Of a stretch of DNA of 35,386 nucleotides, positions 20,460-35,386 are shown in pieces (within the stretch, counting starts at the first letter, position 1; each line of letters starts with the position of its first letter). The DNA is from Candidatus Methanoperedens sp. (GTDB lineage Archaea > Halobacteriota > Methanosarcinia > Methanosarcinales > Methanoperedenaceae), in the NCBI GenBank assembly GCA_012026835.1, contig VEPN01000033.1, positions 1 through 35,386 on the forward strand. Direction: 5' to 3'. The notes under the pieces were generated by a model, which was given only the letters and a program-made list of their open reading frames with translations, was not told the origin of the DNA and searched no databases. A program made the position numbers and the translations under genes.

Positions 20460-21155
20460 ATGCTCAGGAAAATACTTTTTCCATTAACTGCGGCAGCACT
20501 TGCGGTTTCAATCTACCTGATATTCTTTGTCGCCCCGATTCCCATAGACCCAATGGATGCTGGTGGAAATCCCATAAACTTCAAGATATTTTACTTTCAT
20601 GTCCCAATAGCTGCCACTGCATATGTGGCTTTTGGCATTGTATTTGTTTCAAGTATCATGTATCTTAGAACAAAACATGAAAAGTGGGATACCATAGCAG
20701 TTTCTGCATCAGAAGCAGGGGTGATATTTGCAGTCCTTACTTTGATTACAGGTTCGCTCTGGGCAAGATCAGCATGGGGTGAATATTGGGTAACCTGGGA
20801 TGTCAGGTTGAATACGTCGCTTGTTCTTTTTTTAATTTATTTATCTTATCTTATGGTGAGAAAATCCGTGGATGAACCCGAGAAAAGAGCAAGGCTTTCA
20901 GCGGTGTTTGGTATAATCGGTTTTATAAGTGTGCCTCTAAGCTTCCTTTCTATCAGGTTGTGGAATAGAGCCACTGTTCACCCCGTTGTAGTGGGACCGG
21001 GCGGAGGAGGGATTGGCGGAGATGTTGTAATCGGCACGGTTCTCATGAATATTATGGCGTTTTTCCTTCTCTTGACATCAATAGTTGTATTACGCATAGA
21101 AAATGAGAAGCTTTCTGAGGAAATTGCTTTTATCAAACGGACGAAAAATCTGTAA
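20460..21155 (+). CDS. ccmC: cytochrome c biogenesis protein CcmC (haem handling)
   Basis: 231 residues and about six spans. The tryptophan-rich WWD motif reads WGEYWVTWDVRLNT, placed in the extracytoplasmic loop as in CcmC/CcmF. Flanking haem-ligand histidines occur in IFYFHVPIAA and ATVHPVVVGPG. CcmC presents haem to CcmE. The small partner CcmD is encoded at 18900-19034, and CcmH at the window's right end. CcmA, CcmB, CcmE and CcmF are not in the window. Confidence 0.94.
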   Translation: MLRKILFPLTAAALAVSIYLIFFVAPIPIDPMDAGGNPINFKIFYFHVPIAATAYVAFGIVFVSSIMYLRTKHEKWDTIAVSASEAGVIFAVLTLITGSLWARSAWGEYWVTWDVRLNTSLVLFLIYLSYLMVRKSVDEPEKRARLSAVFGIIGFISVPLSFLSIRLWNRATVHPVVVGPGGGGIGGDVVIGTVLMNIMAFFLLLTSIVVLRIENEKLSEEIAFIKRTKNL

Positions 21156-23714: not shown

Positions 23715-25130
23715 ATGAAAGAAGAAAAACGTAATTTATTAATATATATAATAGTATTTATTGTCATGAATATTAATTTTCATGGCAGTGCATTTTCTCC
23801 TGAAAAACAGGACAATTCTCTCCAGTGGTTCCCATCTTTAGCTGCTGATAATGATACCGTGTATGTTGCATGGGCCGATGAAAGAAACGGCAATTATACG
23901 CGGATAATGAATAACCAGCCTCATAAATCCGGGGATATATACCTCTCAAAAGGAAATTTTCAGGATGGTTGGGTTTTTGATGAGAATGTCAGGATTAATG
24001 AAGTCAAGGGAACTACCGGACACGGCTCTCCCTCGATAGCAATTGATAACGATAACCTCTATGTTGTATGGGAAGATGACAGGTTCGGGTTTGAAGAACT
24101 GTATTTTACATCATCCCCGAAAAAGAACATCAAATTCAGCAAGGATTCTCAGGTTGTAGCAGAAACGGGGAGCCGGGTACTGCCTTCAATTTCGGTCCTG
24201 AACAGAACAGTATATGTTGCGATGATGAACAAGAACAACTGGGATATCGAGTTCACAGAGGGGCATCCTGTCAATGGTATGTACAGGTTCGATAAACCGA
24301 TACGAGTGAATGATGACCCCACAGGCAACTGGCACTATGCTCCTTCACTCGCAGTGGATGATGAAATAAATATGTGTATCGCATGGCTTGATGCGAGAAA
24401 TAGTGATTATGATATTTATTTCTCACATGGAATAAAAGAAAACGGGATATGGCGGTTTAGCAAAAATGTCAGGGTAAACGGTGATTCTGCGAACGCATCC
24501 CAGTACACACCTTCGGTAGCCTTTGAGAATGGAAATGCTTACCTTGCATGGTATGATGACAGGAATAAAAATTTTGATATATACTTCTCAGCGGGCAGAT
24601 TGGAAAATAATAACTGGAAATTTGAGAAAAACATCAGGGTAAATGATAAAGTGGATGGGGATCAAATGCATCCCGTCATTGCGTCTGGAGACGGCGAGAT
24701 TTTCATTGTCTGGGAAGACGGCAGGGATGGCGGCTCTGATATTTATTTCTCAAAAAGTGTAATGAAGAATGCCTCTCTTGAATTTAGCAAAAATATTAAA
24801 GTAAATGATATCAAGGGCAGGCATTACGATCCCCAGATCGCGATATCAGGTGCCAGCGTTTATGTTGTATGGCAGGCGGAAAAGATCCCGTATAACGACC
24901 CCGTATTTAAATACGAGGAATATGGGGCTGACAGGGGAGACATATATTTCTCGCAAGGAATATATGATGGTGGAAACTGGAAGTTTGGCAGGAATATAAA
25001 AGTAAATGATGATTTGACATACCCTTTTGCAAAACCTGATGTCTTATTTCTGGGTTCAGTGATTGGAACAGTCATCTTATCGATAATGCTCGTTGGCTTT
25101 CTTAAGAGGAAAAATGAAAAACGAAAGTAA
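23715..25130 (+). CDS. exported, membrane-anchored beta-propeller protein with BNR-like repeats
   Basis: 471 residues. A signal segment (LLIYIIVFIVMNINF) begins the protein, and a C-terminal span (VLFLGSVIGTVILSIMLVGF) with a basic tail anchors it outside. Between lie about seven repeats of 50-60 residues, each with P-S-hydrophobic-A, VYVAWxDxRN and DIYFSxG, then WxFxKNxRVND, resembling sialidase/BNR-type propeller blades. No catalytic residues of a sialidase are evident. It overlaps the next gene, a membrane polyferredoxin, by 17 bases, so the two are expressed together and may form an outward-facing unit. Confidence 0.82.
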   Translation: MKEEKRNLLIYIIVFIVMNINFHGSAFSPEKQDNSLQWFPSLAADNDTVYVAWADERNGNYTRIMNNQPHKSGDIYLSKGNFQDGWVFDENVRINEVKGTTGHGSPSIAIDNDNLYVVWEDDRFGFEELYFTSSPKKNIKFSKDSQVVAETGSRVLPSISVLNRTVYVAMMNKNNWDIEFTEGHPVNGMYRFDKPIRVNDDPTGNWHYAPSLAVDDEINMCIAWLDARNSDYDIYFSHGIKENGIWRFSKNVRVNGDSANASQYTPSVAFENGNAYLAWYDDRNKNFDIYFSAGRLENNNWKFEKNIRVNDKVDGDQMHPVIASGDGEIFIVWEDGRDGGSDIYFSKSVMKNASLEFSKNIKVNDIKGRHYDPQIAISGASVYVVWQAEKIPYNDPVFKYEEYGADRGDIYFSQGIYDGGNWKFGRNIKVNDDLTYPFAKPDVLFLGSVIGTVILSIMLVGFLKRKNEKRK

Positions 25131-26520
25131 TGGAGAAAATCCCCGGGTAAAAGACCTCCTGGAGTTCAATGAGATTAAATCCGTTTTCGCAAAGCGCAAA
25201 ACCCAGTTCCTCTTCCAGCTGCCGGCAGTCCTGCTTTTAATTATAGTCATATTTGCAGGCTTCTTCGGAATTCAAAACAGCAATAAGAGCCTTGCAACCA
25301 TTTCAATATGGGTTGTCTGGTGGTCGCTTCTTATAATAAGCCTGGCTCTTCTTGGAAGGGCCTGGTGCTTTATGTGTCCTTTCGGGGCAGCCGGGGACTG
25401 GGTACAGCGCCGCACTTTTTATAAGAGGATCGGCAGAGCGTTCAGTTTAAACAGGAGGTGGCCCGCTAAATTCAGGAATCTCTCCCTGGCTGCAATATTT
25501 TTTCTCGCAATCACATGGGCGGATTTCCAGTTCAACCTTGTAAATAGTCCAATGAACACTGCATACTTTATTTTTGTTTTACTCGGTCTTGTTGTAATGG
25601 TATCAATAATCTTCGAGCGCCGTACTTTTTGCAGATATGTATGCCCAATAACAGGATTAATAGGCTTATATTCAATGTTTGCTCCTTTTGAATTAAGGGC
25701 AAGGGAAAAAGAAACCTGCAAGACATGCAAAGAAAAATACTGCATCTCGGGGAATGAAAAGGGATATCCCTGCCCGGTATTTGAATATCCAGGCACAATG
25801 GAGAAAAACACTCATTGCATTCTCTGTACTGAATGTGTAAAAACCTGTCATAGAAATAACATTTCCTTTAATCTTCGCCCCTTTGCAGGAGATTTTTTGG
25901 CTATAACAAAAACCCGGATGGATGAGGGGCTCTTCGTCCTGATGCTGCTTGGAGTTACGATATTCCAGACACTGGTCATGATAAGGCCATGGGCGGGTTT
26001 CACACGGGATTTAATGATTTATACGGGCGCCAGTTACGATTCTGTTCGATTCATCTTATTTATCACAGCAGCGATTCTTCCAGTCCTGATCTATTCGATA
26101 GCAGTCGGTATTTCAAAATTGTTCAACAGGAAAATAGTTTTTAAAGACCTTTTCACAGCCTATGCCTACTCTATTATTCCTCTGGGATTGATGATGCATC
26201 TTTCCCATAACATCCGCCATTTACTGGAAGAGGGCGCAGGAATAATTTCTGTTCTTTCTGATCCATTTGGCTATGGGTGGGATTTATTCGGGACTTCAGG
26301 ATATATGCCTGGCCCGATTCTTGGTAGTAATGGTATTCTCCTTATCCAGTGGTTGCTGATGTTCATCGGGTTGGGATTTTCGGTATCTGTGGGCAGGAAT
26401 ATTTCAAGGAGGATGTTCCGGGGGAACGATTCTGCATATATCCCTGTACTGATATTCATTTTTATCTTTTTCGTGTTTAACCTCTGGGTGCTGGGGCAGC
26501 CGATAATGCATAAACACTAA
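25114..26520 (+). CDS. NapH/NosR/CcoG-like membrane polyferredoxin
   Basis: 468 residues with several spans and cysteine groups typical of the 4Fe-4S-binding membrane family: GRAWCFMCPFGAAGDW, FCRYVCPITGLIG, CKTCKEKYC and HCILCTECVKTCHRNN. The C-terminal half has additional spans with histidines (LMMHLSHNIRHLLEE) that could bind haem or metal. Relatives move electrons from quinol across the membrane to envelope reductases or help cytochrome oxidase/N2O reductase assembly. The ATG at 25114 has GAGG 4 bases upstream. Convergent with DUF63; only the stops overlap. Confidence 0.85.
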   Translation: MKNESNGENPRVKDLLEFNEIKSVFAKRKTQFLFQLPAVLLLIIVIFAGFFGIQNSNKSLATISIWVVWWSLLIISLALLGRAWCFMCPFGAAGDWVQRRTFYKRIGRAFSLNRRWPAKFRNLSLAAIFFLAITWADFQFNLVNSPMNTAYFIFVLLGLVVMVSIIFERRTFCRYVCPITGLIGLYSMFAPFELRAREKETCKTCKEKYCISGNEKGYPCPVFEYPGTMEKNTHCILCTECVKTCHRNNISFNLRPFAGDFLAITKTRMDEGLFVLMLLGVTIFQTLVMIRPWAGFTRDLMIYTGASYDSVRFILFITAAILPVLIYSIAVGISKLFNRKIVFKDLFTAYAYSIIPLGLMMHLSHNIRHLLEEGAGIISVLSDPFGYGWDLFGTSGYMPGPILGSNGILLIQWLLMFIGLGFSVSVGRNISRRMFRGNDSAYIPVLIFIFIFFVFNLWVLGQPIMHKH

Positions 26521-27353
26521 ACCCCAAAGACCATGGCAAGCAAATTCCTTGCACCCATAGAGAAGCCAAGAACGATCAACGTCAATGTCAGCATGTACTT
26601 CTCATCCTTATTTTCATCTGTCTTTGAATCTTTTTCAAGCAGCAGGATTATCAATAAGACCAAGATCAAAGATAAGGGTATCAACACGATCCCTGTTCCA
26701 AAAATTGAGGCAAGAAGGGAGCTGAATGGATGTTTGTTCGTATATCCCAGCATATCCACACCTATATATGTTGTGAACGAATCAAGTAAAAACGAAAAGA
26801 TAGCAAATGAATACATCCTGCTGCGAAGATAGGTCATGCGAATCACAGGTGATACTCTCCTGATGAATTCGGTCACAACTATAGATGGGACCAGGCTGTA
26901 CACCAGGATATCGAGATTCCAGCCATATGAATTATTATAAACAAGGAAAACAACGCCCGCTAACGATAATACCACCCCGGCGATAGCATATACACGGAGA
27001 TAATTTTCTATTTTCCGGATTTTCTCAAGATATCTCGTTAAGAGAAGGATTCCGAAACATATCGCAAATATCACGAAATAAATGAGAGGCGTAATAAAAA
27101 AATATTTGACAGGTGGGTTGAGAATATTTGCATCCTCAATTACCCTGAATACTGAACCCATGAAAATATATGGAATCGTGGCAATGACAAATTCTTCATC
27201 AATTTTGATTCTCAATTTATTCAATAGTTTCAGGACAGCATAAACTCCTGCAAATAAGATAATGACATAGGTGATCATGTCAATATGATTGTAGCTGGTA
27301 TCGTTAATGATGCCTTCTATATAATTCCTCTTTATGAAATCGATTAAATCCAT
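26517..27353 (-). CDS. DUF63 family archaeal membrane protein
   Basis: 278 residues and about eight spans. Features of DUF63 are the N-terminal YNHIDMITYVIILFAGVYA, then PYIFMGSVFRVIEDANI and the tyrosine/proline-rich KYFFITPLIYFVIFAI. Function is unknown although the family is widespread in archaea. It is the last gene of the minus-strand run, 7 bases after archaeosortase A, so it may take part in the same envelope process. Confidence 0.85.
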   Translation of the reverse strand: MDLIDFIKRNYIEGIINDTSYNHIDMITYVIILFAGVYAVLKLLNKLRIKIDEEFVIATIPYIFMGSVFRVIEDANILNPPVKYFFITPLIYFVIFAICFGILLLTRYLEKIRKIENYLRVYAIAGVVLSLAGVVFLVYNNSYGWNLDILVYSLVPSIVVTEFIRRVSPVIRMTYLRSRMYSFAIFSFLLDSFTTYIGVDMLGYTNKHPFSSLLASIFGTGIVLIPLSLILVLLIILLLEKDSKTDENKDEKYMLTLTLIVLGFSMGARNLLAMVFGV

Positions 27354-27360
27354 ATCAATT

Positions 27361-28164
27361 TCACCTCATGGACAGCCTGCGAAGTTCCATTTTCATCATC
27401 TTCACGATACCATCTATCATATCTGAAACCTCTGGAAGCATTTTAAGGACCATGTATGATATCAACATTAAAGCAAGTATCGAGCCCGCCTTGGTAATAA
27501 TATGCTCTGAGATATGAAAACTTTCATCAGGCGTGCCAAACCAGCTAAGCCCGTATGCTGAGGCCGTAAAAGAAACTCGCAGGATATTCAGGACATAAAT
27601 AACAGGCACAGAGATCATAAACGCCCTGAGTTTTTGCACAGCAGGCGCACCTGTGGCTGAAATGATCCCCATGAACAGGGCTATGCTCTCAATGGCTGTA
27701 CATGCAAGTATTATTTCAACAAGCATACCGTTAACAGCAAGCTGGTTCCAGGCTACCTGTACAACAGGGAACCCGAATGTTTCGGTGATCCATGTTGCCT
27801 GATTTGTAACGACTGATATTATTGCTATATTCAAAGGCCCTACTTCTGCAAAGAGGAAATATATCAGACCCCCGACTGAAGCAGCCCTTGATAGCGATAT
27901 AAGAATCTCTCCCTGGCCTCCTTCTTTTCCATTCCTTGCCTGGAAGGTTATTCTCGCAATGAAAATACACATTATGGCAGCAATAGTAACTAAAAACGCA
28001 TTAAAATAATCCTGTACCCTGATATATGCTTCAGGCTGCAAAAACCAGTAGATCGACAGGAAAATCCATCCCAGCCCTGCAAAAATGAATCTTGAATTAT
28101 AAGCTCTGGGGAGCGCTGATGCTGTTGCCAGCAGGCCGAGGGATATCCAGAGAGCTGCAATCAC
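27361..28164 (-). CDS. artA: archaeosortase A
   Basis: 267 residues and about eight spans. The exosortase/archaeosortase catalytic set is visible: Cys155 in LACTAIESIALFMG, Arg196 in LNILRVSF and His221 in HISEHII. ArtA removes C-terminal PGF-CTERM anchors from surface proteins and replaces them with a lipid. It starts with GTG, and GTGA overlaps the stop of the ICMT-like gene, so the two are translationally coupled. No PGF-CTERM protein is seen in the window; substrates are elsewhere. Confidence 0.92.
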   Translation of the reverse strand: MIAALWISLGLLATASALPRAYNSRFIFAGLGWIFLSIYWFLQPEAYIRVQDYFNAFLVTIAAIMCIFIARITFQARNGKEGGQGEILISLSRAASVGGLIYFLFAEVGPLNIAIISVVTNQATWITETFGFPVVQVAWNQLAVNGMLVEIILACTAIESIALFMGIISATGAPAVQKLRAFMISVPVIYVLNILRVSFTASAYGLSWFGTPDESFHISEHIITKAGSILALMLISYMVLKMLPEVSDMIDGIVKMMKMELRRLSMR

Positions 28165-28934
28165 GGTACAGCCTGCCCTTTTTTTGTTATCGAAGGAAAG
28201 AACATGGGCGTTCGGCTCTCATACTCCTGATATCTTTCACCGAATGTCTCTCTTGCCTCTCCTTCTTCTCTTTTCGCAAGCCTGTAGTACATTATAATAA
28301 GAACAGGCCACATGGCAACAGTGATTATGGTTGGCCACTGGATAAGCAGCCCCGCAGTTATTATTATAAGCCCGAGGTACTGGGGATGCCTGACATACCT
28401 GTAAATGCCTCCGGTTACAAGTCCCCCGCGGGAAGCATGTATCATGCTCCAGCCCCTTGACATCAGGAATAATCCGAGGAATATAACAGCGCTGCTTGTC
28501 ACCATCACAAATGCCCACCCAGCTTCCATGCTCATTACACCTGCTTTAGAAAGGAATACGCCGAGCAGATGCCCCTGCGCATGTCCGAAAGACAGATTCA
28601 CCCCGAACAGCGAGGAGAGCACATAGATTGTCAGCGGGAAACCGTACATTTCGGAGAACAGCGCAATTATGAACGCCTCGTATATTCCTAGGGTTCTCCA
28701 GTTCTGTTTCTTCAGCGGGGTAAGGAAGCTTAACACGAAGACCGAAAAGATACCGATGCTAAGAAGTGTTGCTGCCCAGTTACCATAAGCGTTTCCTGTC
28801 AGGTCATGATGATTTCCGCCTTCAATATTTTCAGGTTTTTCAAAACCAAGAAGGATAGAAAGACCCGAGATGAGAATTAAAACCATGAGCAGGATGAATC
28901 CGGCCGAAATAATATCTCTTAAGATTTTTCTCGT
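28161..28934 (-). CDS. integral-membrane methyltransferase, ICMT/PEMT (NnrU-like) family
   Basis: About 257 residues. The C-terminal SAM-binding part GGIYRYVRHPQYLGLIIITA followed by KREEGEARETFGERYQEY is diagnostic of isoprenylcysteine carboxyl/phospholipid methyltransferases. The first usual start is ATG 28886, but this cuts into the first span. The frame continues upstream with TRKILRDIISAGFILL, and ACG at 28934 has GGTGG 6 bases upstream. I give the longer form. Substrate unknown; coupling to archaeosortase suggests a lipid or C-terminal anchor. Function by analogy only. Confidence 0.8.
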   Translation of the reverse strand, partial: TRKILRDIISAGFILLMVLILISGLSILLGFEKPENIEGGNHHDLTGNAYGNWAATLLSIGIFSVFVLSFLTPLKKQNWRTLGIYEAFIIALFSEMYGFPLTIYVLSSLFGVNLSFGHAQGHLLGVFLSKAGVMSMEAGWAFVMVTSSAVIFLGLFLMSRGWSMIHASRGGLVTGGIYRYVRHPQYLGLIIITAGLLIQWPTIITVAMWPVLIIMYYRLAKREEGEARETFGERYQEYESRTPMFFPSITKKGQAVP

Positions 28935-28936
28935 AA

Positions 28937-29452
28937 TTATCCACCTATGCTTTTTACGGCTTCATCGATGAGCTCTGAACGGTATATCCTGTCCTGGTTG
29001 CTGATGGCTATCCAGATAACAAGATTGTTTTTCGAGTAATAGTAGTGATACCCCCCGCCGCCTTCAGTATAGTATATTTTCAGTCCATCTATTTTTAAGA
29101 CTTCCGGAATACTGAACATACCACCTACGCCCATGCCTCTTGTCATGTTGTCTACCTTTTCGGTTGCCTTCTTTTCCGTATCTGCTGCTGTTATAGAAAC
29201 TGTCGCTCTGTTGCCTGCGCTGTTTCTGTATTGAGCTACGTGGGCTTGATCCGGGCTGACATTATCCTTTGCAGAGTGCGAATTTTGTATCTCACGAACT
29301 GCCACCTCGCCCTCCCTGTGGAGTTTAAGTTCCATGTCGCCGAGTTTCTCAGGAAAAAGTGGTTTCTGGCCAAGGGATAAAAGTACTGCTGATGCAATTA
29401 TAATTATAGCAAGAACCGCTATCAAAAAAATACCATTTTTTTTCTGTTTCAT
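28937..29452 (-). CDS. anchored paralog 1 of the LGDM family, function unknown
   Basis: 171 residues: one N-terminal span (FLIAVLAIIIIASAVLLSLG) and an outside domain starting LFPEKLGDMELKLHREGEVA. The domain is shared with the two genes upstream: LGDM followed by a glycine-rich helix start, then a YRNSAGNRATVSI-like strand and IDGLKIYYTEG...YHYYYSKNNLVIWIAI. I see no cysteines for haem or metal. The start resembles weakly the EpsI/DUF3485 or DUF6599 type, but I do not claim membership. It follows paralog 2 after 4 bases. Confidence 0.75.
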   Translation of the reverse strand: MKQKKNGIFLIAVLAIIIIASAVLLSLGQKPLFPEKLGDMELKLHREGEVAVREIQNSHSAKDNVSPDQAHVAQYRNSAGNRATVSITAADTEKKATEKVDNMTRGMGVGGMFSIPEVLKIDGLKIYYTEGGGGYHYYYSKNNLVIWIAISNQDRIYRSELIDEAVKSIGG

Positions 29453-29456
29453 TGCA

Positions 29457-29981
29457 TTAAATCCGTTTTATAGACTCTTTTACGAAGTTAAGCCTGTAAG
29501 CTTCGTCCGGGTTATCTACCTGTATCCAGAACAACATTTTATCTTTGGCATAAAAGTAATGATACAGGCCAACCTCCGGTTTTCCGCTCACAAAGTAAAC
29601 CGTGATACCTTCTATATTCATAGGCGTGGAATCACTGAACATGCCTGATTTTCCAACCCTGCTGTTCATAGATTCAAGAAGGGATGCTGCTTCTTCCCTG
29701 GTTTTTGACTCGGATACCCAGAACTTGGCTTTGCTGGCAGGTGTACTCCTGTAGTTAGCTATATAGGCGGCCTCGATTTTTACATCGGGACTATTGCCAT
29801 GCAGTCCCATTACCTCATTCATGGCTGTATCCCCGTCCCTGTAGAGAGCTATTGTCATATCACCCAGTTTTTCAGGGAAAATGCCGTAGGGGTTCTGCGT
29901 TTCCAGGTACAGGAATGCAGTAACAGCTATAACAGCGATTATAAATATTGCAAGGTATATTTCAGATTTATTTTTCCTCAT
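29457..29981 (-). CDS. anchored paralog 2 of the LGDM family, function unknown
   Basis: 174 residues with an N-terminal span (IYLAIFIIAVIAVTAFLYL) and an outside domain FPEKLGDMTIALYRDGDTAM, then YIANYRSTPASKAKFWVSES and VGLYHYFYAKDKMLFWIQVD. It is clearly related to paralogs 1 and 3 along the whole length, so the three arose by tandem duplication. GGTGAG precedes its ATG. Confidence 0.75.
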   Translation of the reverse strand: MRKNKSEIYLAIFIIAVIAVTAFLYLETQNPYGIFPEKLGDMTIALYRDGDTAMNEVMGLHGNSPDVKIEAAYIANYRSTPASKAKFWVSESKTREEAASLLESMNSRVGKSGMFSDSTPMNIEGITVYFVSGKPEVGLYHYFYAKDKMLFWIQVDNPDEAYRLNFVKESIKRI

Positions 29982-29989
29982 GGTCTCAC

Positions 29990-30580
29990 CTATATGTCTA
30001 TTACCGCCTGCTTCACAATCGACATTTGGTAGCCCGTATCAGGAGAATCAAAAATTATCCAGTAAACTCTCCCCATCTTATAATCCATCTTAAAATAATA
30101 GTAGTTGTATGCATTATTTGCTATAATCATATATACTTCAGGCTTCACAAACTCCATAACGTCTACTTTTACGGGTTTCGTATTGTTCCCCATATCATTA
30201 TCGCTATGCCCTTTATGCGACTCCGTCTGGCCCACATCACCTGAGTATTCATGTCCTTCGTGTCCTGTTGAAGCTCCCAACCCTGAATTCATTTCATTGA
30301 ATGCATCGTTTGCGATGTTATGATCCGGAGCCTCGGCAACCCAGATACGCATGGTAGCGTTCCTGCTTCTGTACTCTGCTGAATAAGCTTTTGCCAGTGG
30401 TATGTCCTTTAGCCCGTACATATTCGAGATCTGCTGGGCAGCAACTTCCCCGGTTTCATATCTGGCCAAAGTCATGTCACCCAATCTTTCAGTAAAGATG
30501 CTTTTTCTGCTATCCGATAGGTACAGGAAAGATACTGACAGCACAGCAGCCACGATAATTACTATATATATTTTTTTCAT
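29990..30580 (-). CDS. anchored paralog 3 of the LGDM family with histidine-rich insert
   Basis: 196 residues. The N-terminal span (IYIVIIVAAVLSVSFLYL) is followed by FTERLGDMTLARYETGEVAA and the paralog strands YRSRNATMRIWVAEA and YNYYYFKMDYKMGRVYWIIF. Unlike the others it carries an insert of about 30 residues with HEGHE and SHKGHSDND, rich in His and Asp, which could bind copper or another metal. AGGAG lies 5 bases before the ATG. It is the first of the three tandem copies. Confidence 0.77.
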   Translation of the reverse strand: MKKIYIVIIVAAVLSVSFLYLSDSRKSIFTERLGDMTLARYETGEVAAQQISNMYGLKDIPLAKAYSAEYRSRNATMRIWVAEAPDHNIANDAFNEMNSGLGASTGHEGHEYSGDVGQTESHKGHSDNDMGNNTKPVKVDVMEFVKPEVYMIIANNAYNYYYFKMDYKMGRVYWIIFDSPDTGYQMSIVKQAVIDI

Positions 30581-30589
30581 AATCTCCTG

Positions 30590-31084
30590 TTATACCATAG
30601 TTTTTTTTGCTTCTGCAATAATCACTTTATCTTTTAAGATGGCCCTTGCAATATACGCGCTACCGACCAGGTTAGCCAGTAATCCAATTATGATTATGGC
30701 GTCTTTATACTGGATAAGGAATGATGATGCTGCAAGAATAAAACCAACTGTAGGCAACACGTCACTCACATGATGCAAGCAGCATGCCAACATCGTAAAC
30801 GATGAAGTAGCTGAGCCTGCTACACCCATCTTTTCAGAGCCACGTAATTTATTCTCCGTGGTCAGATTCCTATGGTGTCTGAAAAGCCCCATTTGCACGC
30901 TAACTGCCAGGGGGATAATGTACACAAATATCCCATTAGTAAGAAATATCTGATACCCTTTCTCAAATGAGCCTTCTGCTAAGGATGCAATTGAGATATT
31001 AAAAACGATTACAAATATCCCGACGATCGCTCCAAAAGCAAAGGGATTTTTTAATATGTTCTTGATGGTTTGTTTTCCTGACAT
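30590..31084 (-). CDS. four-span membrane protein with CCLHHVSDVLP motif
   Basis: 164 residues and about four spans. Between spans two and three is SSFTMLACCLHHVSDVLPTV, a CCxHHxxDxxP motif placed at the membrane edge; two Cys and two His so close together strongly suggest metal binding. I recall similar motifs in unnamed membrane proteins near copper and cytochrome genes but cannot name the family. It starts 1 base after the lipoprotein stop and lies in the YHS-led operon. Confidence 0.75.
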   Translation of the reverse strand: MSGKQTIKNILKNPFAFGAIVGIFVIVFNISIASLAEGSFEKGYQIFLTNGIFVYIIPLAVSVQMGLFRHHRNLTTENKLRGSEKMGVAGSATSSFTMLACCLHHVSDVLPTVGFILAASSFLIQYKDAIIIIGLLANLVGSAYIARAILKDKVIIAEAKKTMV

Positions 31085-31085
31085 T

Positions 31086-31553
31086 TTACACTTGCCATTT
31101 TAAGACTCTTTCTTTTACTCCTGCAACATCCTGAATAACAAGTTCAAAACCTGCCCGATCATCAAATTTCGGGAATTTAAGGGTGCCTTCAAAATGATGT
31201 CCTCCGATGCCTCCATCCCATGATTCTGGTTTGATTGCGTTCCCTGTACTGTCGCGAATGTATGATATCTTGGTCATATCATAATCCAGCGAGCCTGAAT
31301 GAGTATCCATTTTAATATCAAAGGCATTATTTCCAAGATATACGGCAGTGATGGTCACTCCCGCCTCTGAATTTTCTCTCTGCTGTGATGAATCTGTGGT
31401 AGATGTTTTATCTACAGTAGCTGTTTTATCTACAACTGCTGTTTTATCTACAGTAGCTGGTTGTTCAGTTTTAGGCTCATTGCTTGATAAACATCCGCTT
31501 ACTGCTGCTGTAATCAAAACCAATAGTGCAATTATAATACCTGTTTTTCTCAT
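31086..31553 (-). CDS. exported lipoprotein with VDKTA repeats
   Basis: 155 residues. A signal peptide ends in a lipobox VSGC (Cys about residue 21). A tandem repeat linker (VDKTAVVDKTATVDKTST) follows, then a compact beta domain with ITAVYLGNNAFDIKMDTHSG and GGIGGHHFEGTLKFP. The HSG and GGHHFEG histidines may bind metal. I do not recognise the family. GAGGA lies 7 bases before the ATG. It lies between a small membrane protein and the CCLHH protein. Confidence 0.78.
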   Translation of the reverse strand: MRKTGIIIALLVLITAAVSGCLSSNEPKTEQPATVDKTAVVDKTATVDKTSTTDSSQQRENSEAGVTITAVYLGNNAFDIKMDTHSGSLDYDMTKISYIRDSTGNAIKPESWDGGIGGHHFEGTLKFPKFDDRAGFELVIQDVAGVKERVLKWQV

Positions 31554-31707: not shown

Positions 31708-31899
31708 TTACCAGAACTTCCACCATGGTTTTTTCTCACCCATACCCACGGGTCCATTTTTCAGGTATTTTTCAGGCTCTGAATCAAACGCTTTCTTGCA
31801 TCCGGGAGCGCAGAAATAATATGTCTTTCCCTTATATTCTGATTTGTACTGTGCTGTGTTCTCATCAACCTGCATTCCACACATAGGGTCTATTTGCAT
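31708..31899 (-). CDS. YHS-domain metal-binding protein
   Basis: 63 residues, a stand-alone YHS/TRASH domain: DPMCGMQVDENTA, then GKTYYFCAPGCKKAFDSEPE. It is related to the N-terminal domain of the CopA in this window. Such small proteins bind Cu(I) or similar soft metals in the cytoplasm. GGAGG lies 7 bases before the ATG, and the palindromic operator and a TATA box lie about 35-60 bases upstream. It leads the ten-gene run down to DUF63. Confidence 0.9.
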   Translation of the reverse strand: MQIDPMCGMQVDENTAQYKSEYKGKTYYFCAPGCKKAFDSEPEKYLKNGPVGMGEKKPWWKFW

Positions 31900-32454: not shown

Positions 32455-32937
32455 TTACGGCGGCATCGGCGTATCAGTCCCGACCCCCCTGCCTGAATAT
32501 CCGTCATCAATGGTTTTCCTGACATCTTTCAGTGAACTCCCTTTCATCAACATGTCCCTTGCTTCCAGTGTTATATCATTGCACAGCTTGCATTCAGAAG
32601 CATGCGGCTCAAAACTCCCGTCGGGTTTGATGTAGCAATCCTTCAGGCTTTTATGCGAAAGGAGTTTGTCTGAGTGCTCCATGCCAGCACAGCCGCAGTA
32701 GCACGCAAGATACTTGAGCTTGTCTTGGTTCTGTGCTGCATATATGTATGCTTCAGCCACACGAGCTGTCTTTTGTGCGAACTCAGGAAGTTCAGGTTTC
32801 GCGGGTTTTTTTGTATTATTGTCTGCTAATTTTTCACCACCTGCGTTGTTTAATAGTTGTGTGCCTCCCAATAGAGTGTAGTAAATTATTATGACAATTG
32901 CAACAGCGATTGCACCGGAAATGATTTTCGTTTTCAT
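32455..32937 (-). CDS. PCYCGC-motif membrane-anchored protein
   Basis: 160 residues: one N-terminal span (SGAIAVAIVIIIYYTLLG), then an outside helical domain with ACYCGCAGMEHSDKLLSHKS, KDCYIKPDG and HASECKLCNDITLEAR. This is the PCYCGC family, where the leading P is A here. Cysteines and histidines suggest metal (copper or haem) or thiol chemistry. The ATG at 32937 follows GGAGG by 5 bases; the upstream in-frame ATG at 32949 overlaps that site. It starts 13 bases after the CcdA-like gene. Confidence 0.87.
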   Translation of the reverse strand: MKTKIISGAIAVAIVIIIYYTLLGGTQLLNNAGGEKLADNNTKKPAKPELPEFAQKTARVAEAYIYAAQNQDKLKYLACYCGCAGMEHSDKLLSHKSLKDCYIKPDGSFEPHASECKLCNDITLEARDMLMKGSSLKDVRKTIDDGYSGRGVGTDTPMPP

Positions 32938-32950
32938 ATTGTCCTCCATA

Positions 32951-33646
32951 TTAAATTATCATCAGTATCACGAATCCCATTACCACCATGAATGAGCCCA
33001 TTAAAAGTCTCACATTTCTTTTGTTCCCTGACTGCCATGCCACCATTTTATCAACTACTATCCTGTTTGATGAGGCAAGAAGTACGGCCACAAGAGGCAC
33101 AATAAGCATCAGGTTGTAAATAAGAAGGTAAACTATACCCTCGGCCAGTGTGGCCTGAAGTGTAATTAATCCCAGAACTGCAAGATATATGCCGCCGCTG
33201 CATGGAACCGTGCAAAGGCCGACAAGGACCCCGGCACCAAAGACCCCAGGTATGGATGTTTTTTTTATCCAGGTATTTATCGTGGTGTGCATACTTTGCG
33301 GTATTGCAAGGCCAAAACCGCCGGGCACAAAGTAATCCTTCATTAAAACTAAACCAAGCAGCATGGAAATTAAGGCTGCTGCCTTGCCCACAGCATGTGT
33401 TGCGGAAAAGAATGATATGGCGCTGAGAAAGCCTACACCTATTAACACGTAGGTTACGAATATGCCGCTTATGTATATCGACCCTACTTTCATTAACCCG
33501 AACCTGTAATCCGTATTCATCTGGAGCATACCCATAGTAAAGGTTATGAACAGCAGCAGGACCGCGAAAGCACAGGGGTTAAACCCGTCAATTAAGCCTG
33601 CTATCATTACAATGGGAAGCGTTAATGTCTGTGGGTCGATTGCCAT
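32951..33646 (-). CDS. ccdA: CcdA/DsbD-type membrane thiol-disulfide transporter
   Basis: 231 residues and six or seven spans. The two redox cysteine sites are GFNPCAFAVL (Cys25) and GLCTVPCSGGIY in the fourth span region. CcdA carries electrons from cytoplasmic thioredoxin to outside thiols, which keeps the CXXCH cysteines of apocytochromes c and copper-binding proteins reduced. It lies between the cupredoxin and PCYCGC genes in the same direction as CcmH. Confidence 0.93.
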   Translation of the reverse strand: MAIDPQTLTLPIVMIAGLIDGFNPCAFAVLLLFITFTMGMLQMNTDYRFGLMKVGSIYISGIFVTYVLIGVGFLSAISFFSATHAVGKAAALISMLLGLVLMKDYFVPGGFGLAIPQSMHTTINTWIKKTSIPGVFGAGVLVGLCTVPCSGGIYLAVLGLITLQATLAEGIVYLLIYNLMLIVPLVAVLLASSNRIVVDKMVAWQSGNKRNVRLLMGSFMVVMGFVILMII

Positions 33647-33658
33647 ATTTCTCTTCCT

Positions 33659-34132
33659 TCAGGCAACGATTAGAGTTCCATGCATGCTTGGATTCTCCTT
33701 ACCTCCACAGCATGAATCGCAGTACCAGTGATATTCTCCGGGCTGCGTGGGCGTGAATGTGAAAACTTTCTGGCTTTCAGGCCCAACCGTGACATCCACA
33801 TTTGCAAGGCCTGCTGAAAGCAGGAAGTTATGGACTCCACCCCCGTCTGTATGCATGGAGGTATCAGGATTTATCAGGTTTACTGTCACAGTCTCCCCTG
33901 TCTTTGCCCTGATTATATTAGGTTCAAAACCTGCCATAGTGATAGTCATTTTAATGGCATCTTTATCAACCGGGTCCAAGGACGCCGATTTGCTCATGAC
34001 CAAATATAATGCAGAACCGAATATCGCGATAACGATAACCATGAACAAAATACTTTTGAGCGGGAATTTTTTCGCCCTTTTGTTTTGTTTTTCGTTCTGC
34101 CTCCTCTCTTTATATTTTTTTGATTTTGACAT
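33659..34132 (-). CDS. membrane-anchored cupredoxin, CuA-like ligand loop
   Basis: 157 residues. A very basic N terminus (SKKYKERRQNEKQNKRAKK) precedes one span (ILFMVIVIAIFGSALYLV), then a beta-sandwich: ITMAGFEPNIIRAKTGETV, VNLINPDTSMHTDGGGVHNF and a C-terminal ligand loop WYCDSCCGGKENPSMHGTL. Histidine in VHNF, cysteines in CDSCC, and Met/His in SMHG resemble the CuA site of cytochrome oxidase subunit II or nitrous oxide reductase. It probably accepts copper or electrons outside the cell membrane. Confidence 0.87.
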   Translation of the reverse strand: MSKSKKYKERRQNEKQNKRAKKFPLKSILFMVIVIAIFGSALYLVMSKSASLDPVDKDAIKMTITMAGFEPNIIRAKTGETVTVNLINPDTSMHTDGGGVHNFLLSAGLANVDVTVGPESQKVFTFTPTQPGEYHWYCDSCCGGKENPSMHGTLIVA

Positions 34133-34147
34133 ATATAACTCTCCTGA

Positions 34148-35035
34148 TTAAATTTTATTTCTTATTTTATCCATTTTAATAAATATCTGGATCGCCTTTT
34201 GCCTGTATTCCTCCATCAGCCTTCCATATTCTTCGGATTTCTCCGCTCCAGCATGTTTTTCAAAACTCCTGATAGCATGGAAAATCTTTTTTTTCTCAAC
34301 CTCAAGTTCATCCAGAGTGTACTCTTTTGTTTTCCTGAAGATCTTAACCTTATAATAATAAACTAAACCCGTTGAAAATAAGAGAAAAAGGCCAATCCCG
34401 GCATACAGGAAGCCCTGCTCCTGAGTCATTTTAATTGGAATGCCAATCATTTCACCTGCTTCAAGGTCATTAAAAGCAATAACGTTGTATTCATTTCCCT
34501 GGAGTGTTACTGTCTTGTACTGGCCTTCACTGACAATCCCGCTTTTCCTGTCAACGAACAACAAAAGAGAAGTAGTATTGTACATGGCGCTTTTATTAAA
34601 CATATATTCCATTCCCTGGGGAAGAAGTGTATAAGATACTTGCATTTCAAAGTTTTCACCGGGCTTAATCGGCTGCATGGGATCCATAAACACAGCCCCT
34701 TCTTCCTGCACAAGACAGCACTCCATAACCTGGGTCTGCAGGTCTTTCAAGCCAGGCGGCGTTGATATTGCAAAAAAAGTGTGGTTATCCTTACTATAGT
34801 ATATCTCGGGGCCTTCATTCCTGAATATAACGTTCTCGGAAACTTTGAGGGAATTATTCTCCTGTTTTATGAAGATATGGTCAATGACAACCTTTATATT
34901 GAAACTCTGATTGACATGCCCGACGTTAGAGTTAGATGTTGTATAATTTTTTTCACCTGGAGTACTTTCGCCGGCTTGCACTGAGATAACACCTAACAAA
35001 TACAATAGTATAAACGCAGGAAGAATTATCCTCAC
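34148..35035 (-). CDS. cytochrome c maturation-associated membrane protein with CcmI-like tail
   Basis: 295 residues. A signal segment (ILPAFILLYLLGVISVQAG) is followed by an outside beta-rich domain (about 25-210) with a CC pair in VMECCLVQE, one span (GFLYAGIGLFLLFSTGLVYYY), and a cytoplasmic helical tail EYTLDELEVEKKKIFHAIRS ... YGRLMEEYRQKAIQIFIKMD. The tail has the L-E-K-I-AI--E...Y--L---Y---A--I pattern seen in CcmI/CycH-type N termini and other cytochrome c assembly proteins. It overlaps the ccmH end by 4 bases. Family assignment beyond that is not possible. Confidence 0.7.
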   Translation of the reverse strand: MRIILPAFILLYLLGVISVQAGESTPGEKNYTTSNSNVGHVNQSFNIKVVIDHIFIKQENNSLKVSENVIFRNEGPEIYYSKDNHTFFAISTPPGLKDLQTQVMECCLVQEEGAVFMDPMQPIKPGENFEMQVSYTLLPQGMEYMFNKSAMYNTTSLLLFVDRKSGIVSEGQYKTVTLQGNEYNVIAFNDLEAGEMIGIPIKMTQEQGFLYAGIGLFLLFSTGLVYYYKVKIFRKTKEYTLDELEVEKKKIFHAIRSFEKHAGAEKSEEYGRLMEEYRQKAIQIFIKMDKIRNKI

Positions 35036-35386
35036 ACTTCCTCCTCAGAAATAAATCTCCGGTATTCCTCTTCAAAGCGCTGCTCGTACTTTTTTTTATT
35101 AGGGGCAGGTATAATATCCGGATTTGGTTTTCTTATCATTGTGTATTCGAGGAACACAAATATGAGGATCAATGGTATTCCTGCAAGCCACAGGGGTATC
35201 GAGTTATCCTTTTCAGGACGTACCAGGATATCACTGCCATATTCCGCCTTTAGCGCTGAAAATATTTGTTCTTCCGAAAAGCTACTCTCCTTCATCTGGC
35301 TGATCTCTTTTTTGATCTGTATCGCAGTAGAGCAATCGCATGTTGAAATAATCATGGCGCATTCACAGGGGCATATCAGGTGGGAT
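35032..35386 (-). CDS. ccmH: CcmH-type cytochrome c maturation protein, 5' end outside the window
   Basis: At least 118 residues; the frame stays open to the window edge. Reading in from the edge gives HLICPCECAMIISTCDCSTA, the archaeal CcmH redox motif, in which two CxC-type pairs replace the bacterial LRCxxC. A helical bundle (EISQMKESSFSEEQIFSALKAEYGSDILV) and one span (LWLAGIPLILIFVFLEY) follow, as in CcmH. CcmH reduces the haem-binding cysteines of apocytochrome c. An ATG at 35355 lies inside the redox motif and is not the start. Confidence 0.9.
   Translation of the reverse strand, partial: SHLICPCECAMIISTCDCSTAIQIKKEISQMKESSFSEEQIFSALKAEYGSDILVRPEKDNSIPLWLAGIPLILIFVFLEYTMIRKPNPDIIPAPNKKKYEQRFEEEYRRFISEEEV

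Follow-up and report, generated by a model that had tools for sequence, protein, structure and literature searches.

Three adjacent genes of Candidatus Methanoperedens sp., here called A, B and C, are tandem paralogs of a family that lies in a conserved gene cluster linked to cytochrome c maturation (Ccm) genes and whose core members are restricted, within the genomes sampled, to those that also encode CcmH. The genes are located in the window analysed here, a stretch of 35,386 nucleotides (assembly GCA_012026835.1, contig VEPN01000033.1). We give an even chance to the reading in which A, B and C are accessory proteins (carriers or chaperones) of the CcmH-type archaeal Ccm system, where their role would probably be the handling of metal, haem or unfinished protein. 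In Methanoperedens and in iron-reducing Archaeoglobi, extracellular electron transfer depends on many multihaem cytochromes, and a family that tracks with CcmH inside ccm clusters is a concrete and testable candidate for a missing part of Ccm. Whether archaeal haem loading without the full bacterial Ccm system relies on non-orthologous replacement of the missing parts is a question raised in the accessible portion of PMC9084895. The fold and the host system were already known. No description of the family, of its association with CcmH-type Ccm or of the histidine trade-off discussed below was encountered in the accessible portions of the open-licence PMC literature, including those of PMC9012536, PMC5244752, PMC9084895, PMC4429474 and PMC4600277.

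Paralogy, predicted fold and family limits

The genes are transcribed in the order A, B, C, with gaps of 8 bases (A–B) and 4 bases (B–C). Their minus-strand operon is tight: up164 lies 9 bases from A, the methyltransferase gene 50 bases from C, the methyltransferase and archaeosortase genes overlap by 4 bases, and 7 bases separate the latter from the DUF63 gene (Table 1). The first-pass annotation of this DNA had described three tandem paralogs, and this description is confirmed. Three open reading frames (ORFs) are present, and local alignments of their soluble parts score above all 500 shuffles for each pair (z = 30.6 for A–B, 17.7 for A–C and 48.6 for B–C). When B is used as query against the 3.3-Mb host genome, C is retrieved at E = 7.7e-31 and A at E = 4.2e-15, and C aligns with B over the whole length at 34% identity. 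The shared motifs that had been noted (F(T/P)E(R/K)LGDM, a YRS/YRN strand, and a Y-rich followed by a W-containing strand) are present in all three proteins, and the His-rich stretch HEGHE...SHKGHSDND is confined to A, correctly called the first gene as regards transcription.

Table 1. Position, strand and assignment of the features of the window
Feature	Coordinates	Strand	Description
CcmC-type haem handling protein	20460-21155	+	PF01578 E 8.7e-33
DUF63 membrane protein	26517-27353	-	Operon end; PF01889 E 2.5e-69
Archaeosortase A	27361-28164	-	TIGR04125 E 7.7e-67
PEMT/ICMT-type methyltransferase	28161-28886	-	Integral-membrane; PF04191 E 9.1e-9, PF04140 E 8.3e-8
Gene C	28937-29452	-	ORF of 171 aa; third paralog, both histidines kept
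Gene B	29457-29981	-	ORF of 174 aa; predicted membrane helix 5-28 and Mog1/PsbP-like domain 35-174; H61 and H141
Gene A	29990-30580	-	ORF of 196 aa; predicted N-terminal membrane helix, Mog1/PsbP-like domain and disordered His-rich insert (~106-132)
up164	30590-31084	-	164-aa membrane protein; CCLHH..D.LP motif
lipo155	31086-31553	-	Predicted lipoprotein; GGHH motif; also in L120 and L141
YHS-domain protein	31708-31899	-	63 aa; putative metal binding; PF04945 E 2.1e-20
PCYCGC-motif protein	32455-32949	-	PF13798 E 1e-18
DsbD_TM/CcdA-type membrane protein	32951-33646	-	PF02683 E 1.1e-6
Cupredoxin	33659-34132	-	Membrane-anchored; PF13473 E 1.7e-13
w34148	34148-35035	-	Conserved membrane protein of the cluster; no significant Pfam family
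CcmH homolog	35032-35385	-	Cut by contig end; PF03918 E 1.5e-7

Structure prediction, which had been put forward as the check that could reveal unrelated folds, gave models of A and B that agree in element order and in best structural neighbours. The AlphaFold model of B (40-row alignment, pLDDT 89.8, pTM 0.78) is composed of the membrane helix followed by strand–helix–strand–strand–helix–four strands–helix; that of A (42-row alignment, pLDDT 77.9) has the same order, and the His-rich insert is predicted to be disordered, residues 106–132 having a pLDDT <50. The alignments included 37 (B) or 39 (A) of the 68 family ORFs from loci L037–L070, plus the three window proteins. With the aligner VIA, the model of B matched the PknH sensor domain (4esq; Z 10.5, 133 residues, 3.1 Å), TM1622 (1vr8; Z 10.3) and TiME (7cu8; Z 9.9), and the model of A matched 4esq (Z 9.1) and 1vr8 (Z 9.3); for CyanoP (2lnj) and Mog1 (1eq6), the predicted models gave Z values of 6.7–6.8 and 6.7. 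Other neighbours of B are DcrB (6e8a), the C-terminal domains of RseB/MucB, EagT6 (6xrf), CyanoP and LpqN (6e5d), while those of A are much the same with the addition of Mog1. This set of neighbours corresponds to the Mog1/PsbP-like fold. Likeness to this fold (4esq, 1vr8, 7cu8, 6e8a, 6e5d, 6xrf, 2lnj and 1eq6) consists of the alpha/beta arrangement over ~110–133 residues at Z 6.3–10.5, and several proteins of the fold are extracytoplasmic. However, they share only ~3–16% identity with B, show no sequence-family match and occur in other genomic contexts, and no profile match to Mog1/PsbP-like Pfam families was listed for any family member. The best Foldseek E values were 1.2e-3 (B) and 5.9e-3 (A), none <0.001; Foldseek alone being weak, fold membership rests mainly on VIA. 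At this moderate similarity, which does not indicate a function, the models support one common topology for A and B, in which a membrane helix precedes a Mog1/PsbP-like domain.

Given that the best structural neighbours include the membrane-anchored PknH and TiME, both mycobacterial, the three proteins might be extracytoplasmic sensor domains. This is improbable, as they lack a cytoplasmic signalling part and the model of B has few residues before the membrane helix.

As to sequence families, A, B and C have no significant Pfam or NCBIfam match, no model matches consistently among 40 family members, and the distant family domains tested likewise gave none. A likeness to EpsI/DUF3485 or DUF6599 proteins, suggested as a weak one in the first-pass annotation, is not supported. 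For EpsI/DUF3485 (PF11984), it is limited to a short FP...LG(D/E) start and an archaeosortase nearby: none of the 40 members matches PF11984 at E ≤1, nor does any protein of the host genome at this threshold, and hhalign against a bona fide Methanoperedens EpsI returned a probability of 2% (E 0.025, 58 columns). Moreover, true DUF3485 proteins are separate genes in 11/34 Methanoperedenaceae genomes, and the SFH..IC.EGAGW region conserved in the local EpsI proteins, including its GAGW motif, is missing from the A/B/C family alignment. In the loci with EpsI proteins over the PF11984 cut-off (L071–L081 and L083), many of these genes come directly after a possible exosortase gene, an ORF of ~271 aa. 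For DUF6599, no PF20244 match was obtained among the 40 members (hmmscan, E ≤1); a PF20244 search of four genomes was also negative, but its positive control was silent too. A DUF4367 similarity of C (E 0.09, sub-threshold) and SidD_C similarities of a few members (4/40, best E 0.00068) were judged to be chance, and the family profile retrieved among PDB sequences RNase H alone (E 0.26 and 0.46).

A conserved gene cluster linked to ccm genes

In Methanoperedens, the cluster comprises ccmE, ccmF, ccmH, a gene for a large conserved membrane protein, a second ccmH, w34148 and the cupredoxin, CcdA/DsbD and PCYCGC genes, followed by the YHS gene, lipo155, up164, A, B, in some cases C, and the genes for the ICMT-like methyltransferase, archaeosortase A, a ThiS-like protein and DUF63. 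The contig end of the window falls inside the second ccmH. Among 26 loci containing B (L036–L060 and L062), whose flanks are limited by contig ends, the neighbours counted were A (25), lipo155 (23), up164 (20), the ICMT-type methyltransferase (20), archaeosortase A (18), PCYCGC (17), YHS (17), CcmH (16), DsbD/CcdA (14), CcmF (13) and CcmE (9), and gene C was present in nine. Linkage to ccm genes is conserved, at least one Ccm gene being found in 19 of these loci (CcmE and CcmF identities were confirmed with Pfam in L040) and several in L141. The seven loci with no Ccm gene in the available DNA are L036, L037, L043, L049, L050, L052 and L060; in L037, L043, L049, L050 and L060, the stretch ends little upstream of the trio. 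Seven additional loci contain A without B, four of them with CcmH. In L141, from an ANME-2 archaeon of another family and thus an independent lineage, the genes run in the order CcmF, CcmH, lipo155, a DsbD/CcdA-type protein, A, B, CcmE, thioredoxin, PCYCGC and DsbD; A overlaps the preceding DsbD/CcdA-type gene and B overlaps A. One distant archaeal member, in L128, is a fusion protein in which a thioredoxin (PF13098 E 4.7e-10) precedes the domain, and its gene comes after one for a rhodanese.

The sortase-type enzyme pointed out near the trio in the first-pass annotation is indeed an archaeosortase A (225.6 bits for a cut-off of 75). By analogy with EpsI, which is regarded as a companion of exosortases, A, B and C could serve this enzyme by presenting or folding substrates with sorting signals. 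Such a role would fit the frequency of archaeosortase A in the B loci (18/26), the window operon A–B–C–methyltransferase–archaeosortase A–DUF63 with its short gaps, and the fact that the archaeosortase A of the cluster is an extra copy, three such genes being present in the host genome. We nevertheless find it unlikely: homology to EpsI was not found, no archaeosortase was detected by library comparison in L141 or in L121–L129, and the third archaeosortase A gene of the host (C66:10584-11369) is not near the family matches, which are confined to the window (contig 46 of 116, C46) and to contig C52.

The latter contig carries the whole cluster once more (L036, C52:8000-27000), in a copy from which gene C is absent. 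Its products are identical to those of the window at 95% (B), 93% (methyltransferase and archaeosortase A), 77% (up164), 76% (A) and 41% (lipo155), and beside it lies a gene for an EpsH-family exosortase/archaeosortase (L036:17760-18593; PF09721, E 4.1e-13) not seen with the window copy.

The main rival explanation, which we rate as rather unlikely, is that the trio is part of a module for trafficking or stress involving a metal, probably copper, and that this module stands beside Ccm genes by chance. In such a module, the His loop of A would bind metal, up164 (CCLHH) would move it, lipo155 (GGHH) and the YHS protein would bind it, and B and C would be receptors; most predictions are common to this explanation and to the Ccm reading. 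It would account for the place of lipo155 (23/26) and up164 (20/26) among the trio's nearest and most regular neighbours, and for the YHS protein and cupredoxin within the cluster. In L120, a B-like gene adjoins homologs of up164 and lipo155 on the opposite strand, and no library Ccm gene matched in the DNA read there. In 7/9 of the loci L121–L129 (one genome family, f9), the family gene is directly followed, within ~60 bases and on the same strand, by a gene for a small CxxC..CC..FCxxxC protein; this protein is TRASH-like, but its similarity to DUF7576/TRASH is below the Pfam cut-off in the three proteins tested. No library Ccm gene matched near the family gene in these nine loci. Also encoded in the window are an AsnC regulator with a TRASH domain and a metal ATPase with a YHS domain. 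However, a metal module alone fails to explain the placement in L141, between a DsbD/CcdA-type gene and ccmE, and the co-occurrence with CcmH described below. For the Ccm reading as well, the YHS protein and cupredoxin of the cluster and the CxxC/CC protein of L121–L129 count as supporting metal context.

As for individual neighbours, the similarity of up164 to CDF transporters is sub-threshold (E 5.3e-5), and neither up164 nor lipo155 had a useful relative in the PDB. The motif CC(L/A)HH..D.LP is kept in up164 and in its homolog L120:4452-5057, which are without a Pfam family. An apparent up164–A fusion in L143 was dropped as evidence, the join containing ambiguous bases. At 23715-26520 of the window, a YVAWADERNG-type repeat protein (no Pfam family) adjoins a polyferredoxin (Fer4_5), and it is found beside the cluster in several relatives.

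Distribution and co-occurrence with CcmH

The search for relatives with protein sequences yielded 82 pattern stretches, of which 36 were confirmed in 34 loci, most of them in records of Ca. Methanoperedens or Methanoperedenaceae. The family was found in 28/34 Methanoperedenaceae genomes and in 24 of the 392 sampled genomes of the phylum. A, B and C form distinct groups in the FastTree phylogeny, with ANME-2 sequences placed next to the A as well as the C group; read from this topology, support values aside, the duplications appear older than Methanoperedens. An A–B–C triad with 74–78% identity is also found on a contig assigned to a Ruminiclostridium MAG (L059), which is probably a mis-binned Methanoperedens contig.

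The family genomes are divided into two sets: 13 form the core (E ≤7.1e-17), and the other 11 belong to a divergent clade (E ≥1.6e-13; L130–L140 in the tree). CcmH is rare in archaea. It occurs in 23/392 sampled genomes, namely in 13/13 core-family genomes versus 10/379 others, a split drawn after both lists had been seen, although the tree separating the two groups predates the CcmH search. The association has a Fisher p of 1.7e-18 by genome and, with CcmH in 6/6 core genera versus 6/130 others, of 1.2e-7 by genus, phylogeny being ignored in both cases. Without the split, CcmH is found in 13/24 family genomes versus 10/368 others. None of the 11 genomes of the divergent clade has a detectable CcmH, and no library Ccm gene matched in the loci read; this subfamily is of the VKKSHRGPIKYVKD type and has no common neighbourhood evident in these loci. 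Conversely, 10 of the 23 genomes with CcmH are without the family. CcmE is present in 22/24 family genomes versus 164/392 genomes overall. Basic Ccm can do without the family, given that CcmE is encoded in all 34 Methanoperedenaceae genomes, including the six in which the family is absent.

This distribution can be set against what the accessible portions of earlier reports state on archaeal Ccm. There, CcmH was found in Ferroglobus only (PMC4429474), pairs of CcmH flank duplicate CcmF in Geoglobus ahangari, G. acetivorans and F. placidus (PMC4600277), ANME-2d has CcmH (PMC9012536), and CcmABCEF alone suffices for cytochrome c in Methanosarcina acetivorans (PMC9084895). Within our sample, the core family is restricted to genomes with CcmH, the type of Ccm known from Geoglobus, Ferroglobus and ANME-2d; it goes unmentioned in the accessible portions of PMC4600277 and PMC9012536.

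Proposed role and conserved histidines

Under the preferred reading, in which the three proteins are accessory to CcmH-type Ccm, the N-terminal helix would tether the Mog1/PsbP-like domain to the outer side of the membrane, the site of haem attachment to apocytochromes. Most likely, the trio would act between the thiol-redox parts (CcdA/DsbD, thioredoxin, PCYCGC and CcmH) and the haem ligase CcmF, as a carrier or presenter of metal, haem or apocytochrome. The paralogy, the common predicted fold, the conservation of the cluster, the association with CcmH and the pattern of histidines are observed, and the membrane topology, ligand, partners and order of events are inferred. The presence in the cluster of archaeosortase, DUF63 and methyltransferase genes, which have no known Ccm role, counts against this reading, as do the Methanoperedenaceae and CcmH genomes without the family, the divergent clade in genomes without CcmH, the loci L121–L129 and the sufficiency of CcmABCEF in M. 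acetivorans. A possible analogy is with CcmI, the bacterial apocytochrome chaperone, as regards a role beside CcmH and CcmF. However, CcmI is a TPR protein, and no similarity between it and the A/B/C family was found. Tentatively, and with some doubt, the family may be viewed as an archaea-centred part of a distinct CcmH-type Ccm machine, either in place of the bacterial CcmI that is missing or as an additional chaperone for haem or metal with a two-histidine site. The operon would then link the attachment of haem with thiol redox, the supply of metal and the anchoring of large multihaem cytochromes by archaeosortase.

Two histidines, H61 in the first helix and H141 in a late strand (B numbering), are conserved in B, C and most relatives, whereas A-type copies lack both and nearly all have the insert. 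In a 66-row alignment, both are present in 47 sequences, one in 4 and neither in 15; of the latter, 13 are of the A type and carry the insert, and the other two are an ANME-2 A-like protein without it and a bacterial protein. In the first-pass annotation, A was suggested to be the copy that took on metal binding. This remains plausible from sequence, the insert recurring in A orthologs; in the refined reading, a conserved two-histidine site was lost on the A branch, and A proteins of Methanoperedenaceae acquired an insert, in most cases rich in histidine. B and C would then use the ancestral site, and the flexible loop of A would suit the collecting or sensing of metal. The H61/H141 pair and the His-rich insert are not known from the Mog1/PsbP-like proteins compared above, and the fold together with the two histidines offers residues for mutation. 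The bacterial protein without either histidine is a distant member from a Syntrophomonadaceae MAG (L065:5992-6636), encoded beside aromatic amino acid genes. As to the insert of A, at least three histidines are present in 17 of 23 automatically parsed sequences, and ten further sequences have three or four (nine cases) or two (one case). In some A proteins of A-only clusters (L063, L064, L066 and L067), the insert has a single histidine and is Met/Asp-rich.
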